Source: Fibrobacter succinogenes
GTDB taxonomy: Bacteria; Fibrobacterota; Fibrobacteria; Fibrobacterales; Fibrobacteraceae
Length of the DNA: 33,916 nucleotides
Direction of reading: 5' to 3'
NCBI GenBank assembly: GCA_902768325.1
Contig: CACXKY010000022.1
Coordinates: 1-33,916 of the forward strand
Shown: positions 21,089 to 24,463 of the stretch, piece after piece
How positions within the stretch are numbered: position 1 is the stretch's first letter
Layout of the letters: each line of letters opens with the position of its first letter
Notes under the pieces: generated by a model
What the model saw: the letters and a program-made list of their open reading frames with translations, nothing else
The model's database searches: none
Told to the model about the DNA's origin: nothing
Made by a program: the position numbers and the translations under genes

Positions 21089-21227
21089 ACCAAACATCCT
21101 CTTTTTGTACTATAAAGATATATCCTCCATCGTGACACCGCTCACATCCAAATTCAAAAGCCATGGATAATAAGTCCACGGGCATTTGTTTACAAAATCT
21201 GCCAAAAAAACTTATTTTTGGGGTAGA

Positions 21228-22262
21228 ATGGACACTATTCTGCAAAAAGCGATTGACGGAAACCGCCTTACCACGGCGGAAGCGCTCGACATATTGAAGA
21301 ACGCCCCATGGACAGAAGTGGCCGAAGCCGCCGACAAGGTGCGCAAGCGCATGCATCCCGAAAACAAGGTGGGCTACACCGCCTTCCGTATAGTGAACTA
21401 TACGAACGTCTGCGAAATCACCTGTAGTTTTTGCAGTTTCTGCCGCCCCGCAAAGAGTCCCGAAGCCTACGTACTTACTTTAGACGAAATCCGCCAGAAA
21501 ACAATCGAGGCCAAGGCGAAAGGCGCCGACCAGATTTTTTTGCAGGGCGGAGTCAACAAGGATATCCCGCTCAGCTACTACACCGACGTGCTCAAGATGC
21601 TCACCCACGAAATGGGCGTGAAGGTGCGCGGATTTTCGCCGGTGGAACTCGTGCGCATCGCGGAATTCAACAAGATTACCTTAGACGAACTGCTCGACAT
21701 TTTAAAGGAAGCCGGACTAACGTCCGTGCCGGGCGCCGGCGCCGAAATCCTCTCCGACCGCATGCGGCAACTGCTGTCGCCCAAAAAGCTCCCCGCCCAG
21801 CAGTGGTGCGACACGCTCGCCGCCTGCCACAAGAAGGGACTCCCCGGCAGCGCGAACATCGTTTTCGGCAGCGTCGAGACGCCCGAAGAAATCGTCGAGC
21901 ACCTCGAATACGTGCGTGCCACGCAGGATATCGCCCAGGGATTCAAGAGTTTCGTGGTATGGACGTTCCAGCCGCAAACGGACAAGTTCCCCATCCGGCA
22001 CGTACGCGGCGACGAATATCTCAAGCTTTTGGCGCTTTCCCGCCTGTACCTCGACAACATCCCGCATATCGAAGTATCGCTACTCGGGATGGGACTCTCG
22101 CTCGGCGAACTCGGACTGCACTGCGGTGCCGACGACATCAACAGCATCGTCATCGAAGAGAACGTATTACAGAATCACGGGCTCACGACCATCGAGGCCG
22201 CGGAAGAATTCATCAAGAACGCAGGCTTCACCCCGTACAGACGAAGCCTGAATTTTGACTGA
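21228..22262 (+). CDS. mqnC: Cyclic dehypoxanthinyl futalosine synthase, radical SAM
   Basis: 344 residues from ATG 21228, preceded by GGGGT; the frame is open upstream to 21186. The radical-SAM cluster motif C-E-I-T-C-S-F-C (CxxxCxxC) follows the IVNYTNV strand. FLQGGVNKDIPLSYYTDVL, GAGAEILSDRMRQLLSPKK and the late segment LLGMGLSLGELGL... are typical of the MqnC/MqnE family. The AEILSDR form favours MqnC over MqnE. It makes cyclic dehypoxanthine futalosine in the futalosine route to menaquinone. No other mqn gene is in the window. There is no good plus-strand terminator after the stop. Confidence 0.92.
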   Translation: MDTILQKAIDGNRLTTAEALDILKNAPWTEVAEAADKVRKRMHPENKVGYTAFRIVNYTNVCEITCSFCSFCRPAKSPEAYVLTLDEIRQKTIEAKAKGADQIFLQGGVNKDIPLSYYTDVLKMLTHEMGVKVRGFSPVELVRIAEFNKITLDELLDILKEAGLTSVPGAGAEILSDRMRQLLSPKKLPAQQWCDTLAACHKKGLPGSANIVFGSVETPEEIVEHLEYVRATQDIAQGFKSFVVWTFQPQTDKFPIRHVRGDEYLKLLALSRLYLDNIPHIEVSLLGMGLSLGELGLHCGADDINSIVIEENVLQNHGLTTIEAAEEFIKNAGFTPYRRSLNFD

Positions 22263-22303: not shown

Positions 22304-22340
22304 AAAAAAAACACCGGTCCGCTTATAAAGCTAGACCGGT
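22304..22340 (-). terminator. Terminator of the 20-residue peptide gene
   Basis: On the minus strand ACCGGTC, then an inner GCTT-type stem, then GACCGGT, G and eight T. Plus-strand arms are 22313-22319 and 22334-22340, with an inner GCTT/AAGC pairing and the A-run at 22304-22311. There is no T-run on the plus strand, so it serves a minus-strand transcript. Confidence 0.85.
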
Positions 22341-22383
22341 TAATTACTAGAGAGAGAGTTTTTTAAAATTGCGCGGGCGGCGA

Positions 22384-22446
22384 TTAGGCGCGCTTGGCGT
22401 ACTTCTTGAAGCTCTTGACCAGCAGGGCGGCGAGAATGCAGTACAT
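22384..22446 (-). CDS. Tiny 20-residue hydrophobic/basic peptide
   Basis: ATG 22446 to TAA 22384, sequence MYCILAALLVKSFKKYAKRA. AAAAGGAG (22451-22458) lies four bases before the ATG, among the best ribosome binding sites in the window. A TTGGCG-17-GATAAA promoter-like pair lies upstream and a strong terminator downstream, so all parts of a stand-alone gene are present. The peptide has a short hydrophobic stretch (residues 2-10) and a basic amphipathic end (K-S-F-K-K-Y-A-K-R). This resembles small membrane-active or membrane-bound peptides such as type I toxins, but no antisense RNA gene is evident. It lies between mqnC (convergent) and batD (divergent). Function unknown. Confidence 0.6.
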   Translation of the reverse strand: MYCILAALLVKSFKKYAKRA

Positions 22447-22476
22447 GTGACTCCTTTTATCCTTATTTTTCGTCGT

Positions 22477-22505
22477 TTTATCGCTTTTTTAAATCAGCGC
22501 GCCAA
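22477..22505 (-). promoter_or_regulatory. Promoter-like boxes before the 20-residue peptide gene
   Basis: On the minus strand TTGGCG (22500-22505), a 17-base spacer and GATAAA (22477-22482) resemble -35/-10 boxes. The expected transcript start near 22470 leaves a short leader containing the ribosome binding site. Matches to consensus are partial, and Fibrobacter promoter rules may differ. Confidence 0.35.
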
Positions 22506-22657
22506 TATTAACAAAATTTTACTAACGCGTCAAGGGTAAAAAAGATATATATTTATATTTTTCGGCCAATTAAGGCCCAGCCTTCCCCAAAAAGAATGAC
22601 AGATATTTAACACTGCCAAAACAATCGCGAGGCCGCATTTTTGGTAAATTTGGGGAC

Positions 22658-24463
22658 ATGAAACGAATCCTGTTGACCTGTTTATCCTTAGTTGCCCTCC
22701 TGAACGCCCGTCCCTCCCTCCAGCTAGACCGGGAGCGGGTAGAAGCAGGCCAGACTTTCGGTCTACAACTGGTCATGCCCTTGCAGGAACTCCCCGAAAA
22801 CAGGGGCGTCCCGCAGATGGAAACCCATAACGGATTTACCTTCCTCGGGCTCGACAGTAGCGACCAGGTCATGCGCCCCAGCATGGAAGACATGTTCAAC
22901 TCCTTTTTCAACGGCGGCGGAAGGTCGTACAAGGCCCGCATCTACAATTTCAAGCTCAGGGCCCCTAAAAAGACCGGGCAGATGGACGCCGGCCAGATTA
23001 CCTGGGAAATCGACGGCCAGGTCCAAAATATCAGCGGCAAGATTCCCGTGAGCGTGCAGCGCGCCTATACCGACGACGCCCTCGCCGTGAGCCTTACCGC
23101 AAGCAAGAAGACGATTTACGAAGGCGAACAGTTCTACGTCACCCTCGGTTTCCATACCTACGAGCATTTCGAAGGCGGCCTCCAGGCCACCGACATGAGC
23201 ACCGGCAACGACTTCATTGTCCACCGCAGCGACTTGAACAACATGGAGTTCAAGCCCGTCGAAGGCAGCCGCCGCGAGATGCAGGCAAGCGCCAAGTTCG
23301 CCTGGCTCAGCCCCACCAAGAGCGGTAACCTGCAGATTCCGCCGTTCAAGTTCAAGTATACCAAGCGCGGCGAGCCGAAAATCGTCGAAGAAAAGAAACA
23401 GATGGGCGGCATGTCGTTCTCGAGCCGCACCGTCAAGCAGGAATCCATCGAGGCCGAGGCGACCTCTCCCATTATTAATATCACTGTGAAGCCGCTCCCT
23501 GCCGAAGGCAAGCCCGCAAACTTCTCGGGTATGGTGGGCGACTACAAGTTCTCCGCCGAATTCGACCGCACAAACCTCAAGGTGGGCGAAGCGCTTACGC
23601 TTTCCATCAACATCCGCGGTGACGGTACGCCGGGCACCATCGCCGACCCGAAACTCCCCGACTTCGGCGACTTCCGTTCCGTGCCGCCCGAAAACAACAT
23701 CAGCAAAAAGATTACGGGCAACAAGGTCATTACCAGCAAGGAGATCCGCGTATTCCTCTATCCCAAGAAGAAAGGCACCTTCACCATCCCCGAAATAAGC
23801 TATAGCTGGTTCAACCCCGCCAAGAAGAAATACGAAACCGCCGTGGCGGGCCCCTGGACCATCGAAGTCGAAAAGGGAGACGCCTCCGCCGAAGCCGTAT
23901 TCCAGGCCCCCGTGGTACAGGGCCCTGCCGCCGTGCAAAAGCAGGAAATCGAATCCCTCGGTTCGGACATCCGTTATATCCACGCCGTCGGCAAGGCACA
24001 CGATTCAGCAAGGCCCTACAAGAGCATCGCCTTCTGGATCATCTTCGCGGCCGCCATCCCGTTCTATATTCTTGTAAACCTTGCTATCACGCGCCGTCGC
24101 AAGCATAACAACGATGCCGCCCTCGTGCGTAAAGGCAAGGCCGACAAGATGCTCAAGGCCCGCTTTGCAAACGCCCGCGCCGCCCTGAAGGAGGGCAATG
24201 CCAAGGCGCTGTATGCCGCGCTCGAAAACGGCCTGATCGACTACCTGAGCGACCGTACCAATCTGGAATTCAAGGGCATGACCCGCCCGCAGATGAAGGA
24301 AGAACTTTCAAAGCTCGGTGTAAAGGAAGAAACGATTGCCGCCATCGACAGCTGGCTCGAAAAGTGCGCCTTCGCGCGGTTCGCCCCGGTGAACCCGAGC
24401 GCCGAAGAGCAAAAACAGATGCTCGCCGACGTCGAAAAGCTGTGCGAAGGGCTGAAAGTTTAA
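22658..24463 (+). CDS. batD: BatD-like membrane protein
   Basis: 601 residues. The ATG at 22658 is preceded by GGGGA. It has a signal peptide (RILLTCLSLVALLNA). A long periplasmic part of tandem beta-sandwich (oxygen-tolerance/BatD) domains follows, e.g. ALAVSLTASKKTIYEGEQFY and FSAEFDRTNLKVGEALTLSI. A basic segment (YPKKKGTFTIPEISYSWFNP) precedes one membrane helix (about 455-475, IAFWIIFAAAIPFYILVNL) and a helical cytoplasmic tail. BatD belongs to the Bat system, first linked to aerotolerance in Bacteroides, and usually works with MoxR, BatA/B and BatE. Here it is directly followed by batE, but batA/B and moxR are not in the window. Confidence 0.9.
   Translation: MKRILLTCLSLVALLNARPSLQLDRERVEAGQTFGLQLVMPLQELPENRGVPQMETHNGFTFLGLDSSDQVMRPSMEDMFNSFFNGGGRSYKARIYNFKLRAPKKTGQMDAGQITWEIDGQVQNISGKIPVSVQRAYTDDALAVSLTASKKTIYEGEQFYVTLGFHTYEHFEGGLQATDMSTGNDFIVHRSDLNNMEFKPVEGSRREMQASAKFAWLSPTKSGNLQIPPFKFKYTKRGEPKIVEEKKQMGGMSFSSRTVKQESIEAEATSPIINITVKPLPAEGKPANFSGMVGDYKFSAEFDRTNLKVGEALTLSINIRGDGTPGTIADPKLPDFGDFRSVPPENNISKKITGNKVITSKEIRVFLYPKKKGTFTIPEISYSWFNPAKKKYETAVAGPWTIEVEKGDASAEAVFQAPVVQGPAAVQKQEIESLGSDIRYIHAVGKAHDSARPYKSIAFWIIFAAAIPFYILVNLAITRRRKHNNDAALVRKGKADKMLKARFANARAALKEGNAKALYAALENGLIDYLSDRTNLEFKGMTRPQMKEELSKLGVKEETIAAIDSWLEKCAFARFAPVNPSAEEQKQMLADVEKLCEGLKV

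Follow-up and report, generated by a model that had tools for sequence, protein, structure and literature searches.

A conserved mini-gene for a 20-residue, putatively membrane-associated peptide in Fibrobacter

The minus-strand open reading frame (ORF) at 22384-22446 of the window, by which we mean the whole 33,916-nucleotide stretch of Fibrobacter succinogenes DNA that was analysed, is a real, conserved protein-coding gene whose expression is predicted. Its product belongs to a known kind, the small proteins, and represents a new, previously uncatalogued family within it. Our preferred reading, to which we assign a probability of roughly 0.6, is that this is a monocistronic gene for a membrane-associated accessory or regulatory small protein of the fibre-digesting bacterium Fibrobacter. 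Its transcript might in addition be a dual-function RNA. The whole mini-gene measures about 200 bp, with all of its elements on the minus strand of the window, and is convergent with mqnC and divergent from batD. The features are as follows.

21186-22262, plus strand: mqnC, a flanking gene, which scores exactly at the TIGR03699 cut-off
22304-22340, minus strand: intrinsic terminator by folding, an ACCGGTC...GGACCGGT stem-loop followed by eight T residues
22349-22359, minus strand: CU-repeat element ACTCTCTCTCT in the 3' UTR, recognized by conservation of CTCTCT after the stop
22384-22446, minus strand: ORF of 20 amino acids plus the stop codon TAA, peptide MYCILAALLVKSFKKYAKRA
22451-22458, minus strand: Shine-Dalgarno (SD) sequence AAAAGGAG, 4 nt before the ATG
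22447-22498, minus strand: A-rich 5' leader, with a putative start site near 22498
22505-22533, minus strand: promoter from a sigma-70-type scan, with -35 TTGACG (22533-22528), a 17-nt spacer and extended -10 TGT-TAATAT (22510-22505)
22658-24463, plus strand: batD, a flanking gene

A sequence-only reading of this DNA had proposed a stand-alone small-protein gene, and every box, the SD, the ORF and the stem with its eight T residues are found in the sequence where that reading placed them. The 21-codon ORF it described reads as 20 residues plus a stop at 22446-22384, and the SD that it placed four bases before the ATG has SD-like counterparts (AAGGA or AGGAG) in most orthologues. Likewise, its stem and eight-T terminator is present, and a hairpin followed by a T-run is detected in 63 of 71 distinct 3' regions, compared to 4 of 350 shuffled sequences; a weaker version can be seen in several of the eight regions that were missed. 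This combination is far beyond chance: about 70 distinct orthologous loci show the ORF, the SD and the hairpin with its T-run. A stand-alone gene is strongly supported by its own promoter, SD and terminator, by the purifying selection that acts on the peptide and by its synteny.

The promoter is the one element for which the sequence-only reading has to be replaced. It had taken TTGGCG (22505-22500) and GATAAA (22482-22477), 17 nt apart, as the promoter boxes. Both boxes exist, but a better promoter, the conserved TTGACG-17-TAATAT, lies upstream of them. TTGGCG shares its first base with the end of the real -10 and overlaps the start-site region, while GATAAA is missing from many orthologues and has no room in loci whose whole leader spans 23-29 nt (leader lengths range from 23 to 105 nt between loci). 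The promoter consensus CCCTTGAAACGTTAGTAAAAATTTGTTAATATTGGCGC, which comprises the -35, the 17-nt spacer, the extended -10 and a G+C-rich stretch directly after it (TGGCGCG in the window), is common to 50 distinct loci. No second copy of this element was found in the genome by two pattern searches, the second of which used a pattern one base out of register but allowed three mismatches, enough to absorb the shift. The spacer sequence CGTTAGTAAAA (window 22509-22533) is kept in most clades, beyond the need of a sigma factor alone. Given this conserved spacer and the single occurrence in the genome, the sequence suggests a putative dedicated regulator or an unusual promoter architecture. The promoter region also holds an imperfect dyad, TTAGTAA-N4-TTGTTAA, which may be a regulator site.

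Lack of conservation of the ORF in close relatives had been named beforehand as an outcome that would overturn the small-gene claim. The ORF is kept in these relatives, and the claim stands. When 60 relatives were searched at the DNA level, most of the Fibrobacter genomes gave a match to the region, and the core of similarity consists of the SD and the ORF only. An initial peptide profile found the gene in 63 genus genomes, and the loci beside batD in the remaining genomes exposed a divergent second lineage with the same promoter (MYCLLAYLIVKQLKSGKALI; pattern MYCLLAYL[IV][VI]KQ[LI]K[SA]GKALI). The profile widened to include it detects orthologues of 18-21 amino acids in 68 of 80 genus genomes, and in 36 of the 40 with a completeness of 90% or more, with no convincing match in other genera of the phylum. 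When 84,980 species genomes were scanned with the pattern MYCILA[AV]L, which a distant relative with an altered N-terminus would escape, matches appeared only in Fibrobacter and in one "Fibrobacterales" record with identical synteny. No plasmid matched the peptide gene.

The peptide gene is divergent from batD in every locus whose sequence reaches batD. On a batD tree, labels of three states require 3 changes, compared to 13.3 in shuffles, and this fits vertical descent of the gene with a few losses. Since 12 of the 80 genus genomes are without the gene, and four of these (G116, G125, G129 and G036) are about 99% complete, the gene is not essential across the genus. A weak match in G036, where the batD-linked copy is missing, is not a homologue, and weak paralogues at G000:C129 and G029:C6 are chance matches that sit within a membrane-protein coding gene. 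Four loci that lack the peptide gene have entirely different DNA upstream of batD, either with ORFs that look pilin-like or peptidase-like or with no obvious gene; in four others, mqnC and batD are simply close together. In three loci that do carry the peptide gene, several partial, divergent BatD-like ORFs adjoin it in a row, as if batD had been duplicated and then degraded.

Two complete copies are present in 15 genomes, each with a promoter and, usually, a terminator, and the second copy, where read, precedes a malQ-like gene (malQ was identified by eye). One viral-contig match (L205, IMG/VR) has the sequence of a malQ-side second copy and adjoins phage-like genes. We do not regard it as a viral gene, as it is apparently the host flank of a prophage, and its arrangement suggests that the prophage inserted between the two copies of the peptide gene.

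Selection was measured as pooled pairwise dN/dS over 58 distinct ORF sequences that encode 28 distinct peptides. Codons 2-11 give a ratio of about 0.10 and codons 12-19 one of 0.23; a comparison between the two lineages yields 0.37 for codons 2-11. The peptide is under purifying selection. Residues M1, Y2, C3, L5, A6 and K11 are invariant and form part of a near-invariant face, M-Y-C-[IL]-L-A-x-[LI] plus Lys11. The second lineage retains M-Y-C-x-L-A-x-L and K11, while its encoding codons and its tail differ. Length changes occur in frame only, between 18 and 21 amino acids. An ORF that arose by chance, or one that lies by accident in a non-coding RNA, might be entertained given the very short length of the ORF and the reduced synonymous change at its 5' end, but dN/dS values of 0.10-0.23, zero frameshifts in 58 distinct ORFs and the retention of an amino-acid motif between two lineages despite different codons make this explanation exceedingly improbable.

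The composition of the peptide divides it into two halves. Residues 2-10 are hydrophobic and the tail is basic and amphipathic: the mean Kyte-Doolittle value is +2.7 for residues 1-10 and -1.6 for residues 11-20, the net charge is +5 and the tail moment is 0.77. Judged by this composition, a "membrane-active" peptide, as the sequence-only reading had it, is plausible. In folding predictions, the SD and the start codon show little structure and are on average less paired than the remainder of the ORF.

Under our preferred reading of an accessory or regulatory small protein, the mRNA would be well transcribed without a dedicated activator and would be readily translated, because the A-rich leader is predicted to leave the SD and AUG mostly open. 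The peptide, by its composition, would associate with the inner membrane. Since nine hydrophobic residues cannot span a bilayer, residues 2-10 would more likely enter a single leaflet or bind to a membrane protein, with the Lys/Arg-rich tail lying at the cytoplasmic face. The peptide could then serve as an accessory or regulatory part of a membrane complex, which it would contact through the M-Y-C-[IL]-L-A-x-[LI] face and Lys11. Only its position next to the gene makes BatD a candidate partner, and the function of Bat proteins is itself unsettled (PMC3557215). Two familiar partners can be set aside. No CydA scored above the cut-off in the 80 genus genomes, and KdpA gave only weak partial matches, nearly all to model positions of about 320-520, with none in many peptide-bearing genomes. 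The absence of CydA from the genus and the lack of a convincing KdpA therefore remove roles as a CydX-type or a KdpF-type subunit.

A short hydrophobic peptide with its own promoter also brings to mind a type I toxin, that is, a membrane-depolarising peptide restrained by an RNA antitoxin. The length, hydrophobic stretch, positive tail, Cys residue and tandem complete copies (15 genomes) resemble those of Ibs, Ldr and Zor (PMC8309996). However, an antisense promoter across the ORF is not conserved, being present in at most about 8 of 68 loci at any position, and no long complementary match was found elsewhere in the genome. The window mRNA folds no better than shuffled sequences, and no fold that sequesters the SD was found. 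The gene also occupies a fixed chromosomal place with vertical descent, and its sequence conservation is stronger than that described for type I toxins (PMC8309996). Given the open SD and start codon, the unstructured mRNA and the lack of a conserved antisense promoter, we find no support for a conventional regulated type I toxin, which we consider possible but distinctly improbable. A secreted peptide with an antimicrobial or signalling role would be compatible with 20 residues, a net charge of +3 to +6 and an amphipathic tail, but there is no signal peptide, and the neighbours examined (mqnC, batD and a TPR gene) include no exporter or immunity gene. The core-like distribution and invariant N-terminus are also unlike those of rapidly diversifying bacteriocins, and we judge this explanation to be very unlikely.

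Part of the conservation is probably carried by nucleotides rather than amino acids. Synonymous variation is unusually low in codons 2-7, and the L5 codon is CTC in 52 of 53 distinct main-lineage ORFs; by comparison, among the 42 invariant Leu columns in MqnC and BatD, just one has a codon used at 90% or more. The use of TGC for C3 is less remarkable, as Cys favours TGC anyway. This low synonymous change at the start of the ORF makes it likely that part of the constraint acts on the RNA or on translation initiation. A second nucleotide signal lies between the stop codon and the terminator: 43 of 71 distinct loci carry CTCTCT in the first 45 nt after the stop, at positions 11-30, whereas in 400 kb of sequence from a relative it was present at 1 of 122 other sites that resemble terminators. 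Together, the reduced synonymous change in codons 2-7 and the CU-repeat point to a constraint on the RNA that a protein-only model does not explain.

These signals count in favour of a dual-function RNA: besides encoding the peptide, the transcript would use the CU-repeat of its 3' UTR for base pairing in trans. In many two-copy genomes, the CU-repeat is confined to the batD-side copy. In most genomes, a gene whose T9SS-sorted, secreted product has about 300 amino acids carries a complementary sequence, AGAGAGAG, directly ahead of its start codon; such leaders were seen in L155, L158, L161 and L174 (position about 1500). Of the 80 Fibrobacter genomes, 70 match a pattern for AGAGAGAG-type leaders, with roughly one match each, a count in which not every match is confirmed as a T9SS-sorted protein gene. 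However, genomes that lack the peptide gene or the CU-repeat (G116, G129, G036, G024 and G128) carry the leader equally, so that pairing between the two is unsupported, and no co-variation of the CU-repeat with the leader was found across the 80 genomes. The CU-repeat is also missing from the MYCLLAYL lineage, the AVLL clade and many malQ-side second copies. We regard a dual-function RNA as unlikely, though with an appreciable chance of being correct. A more elaborate form of it is doubtful: a genus-specific dual-function RNA that would combine a uniquely conserved promoter and a near-invariant membrane peptide with a CU-repeat that silences mRNAs with AG-repeat leaders, such as that of a T9SS-secreted surface protein, its RNA role having been lost in some lineages and split between the copies after duplication.

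The peptide gave zero matches in Pfam, NCBIfam, PHROGs, PADLOC and PDB sequences, searches that have little power with such short queries, and an Rfam search of the region returned chance matches only. No paper contains the string MYCILAALL, and no literature on the peptide was found. Since large small-ORF catalogues take ORFs from 30 nt upward (PMC11364881), the bare sequence may already be in such a catalogue, unannotated. Its absence from every annotation library searched illustrates how genes of fewer than 30 codons slip past gene callers. The gene offers a tractable case, with its conservation, fixed neighbourhood, mappable promoter and natural losses in complete genomes, and it bears on the functions of the shortest bacterial proteins; it comes from a phylum for which very little is known of small proteins or regulatory RNAs.

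Among known systems, the E. coli Ibs, Ldr and Zor toxins share with the Fibrobacter gene a length of 18-35 amino acids, hydrophobic and charged residues, an own promoter and, sometimes, tandem complete copies. The Fibrobacter gene differs from them in its lack of a detected antisense RNA or SD-sequestering leader, its fixed place and its much stronger conservation. Subunits of the CydX, KdpF and AcrZ type are likewise very short, conserved, vertically inherited hydrophobic peptides, but the hydrophobic part of the Fibrobacter peptide is too short for a membrane span, and the genus offers neither CydA nor a convincing KdpA. SgrS and RNAIII are dual-function small RNAs that combine a small ORF with a pairing element, and the Fibrobacter transcript resembles them as a short transcript with an ORF, a conserved unpaired-type element and an intrinsic terminator, whereas in this peptide family the candidate pairing element is not universal and the candidate target leader does not co-vary with it. 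SpoVM of Bacillus is a 26-amino-acid amphipathic peptide of the membrane surface; unlike Bacillus, Fibrobacter does not sporulate, and its peptide is not known to be related to SpoVM in sequence. Compared by description rather than by sequence, the Fibrobacter peptide is like SpoVM in being short, with a basic, amphipathic second half.
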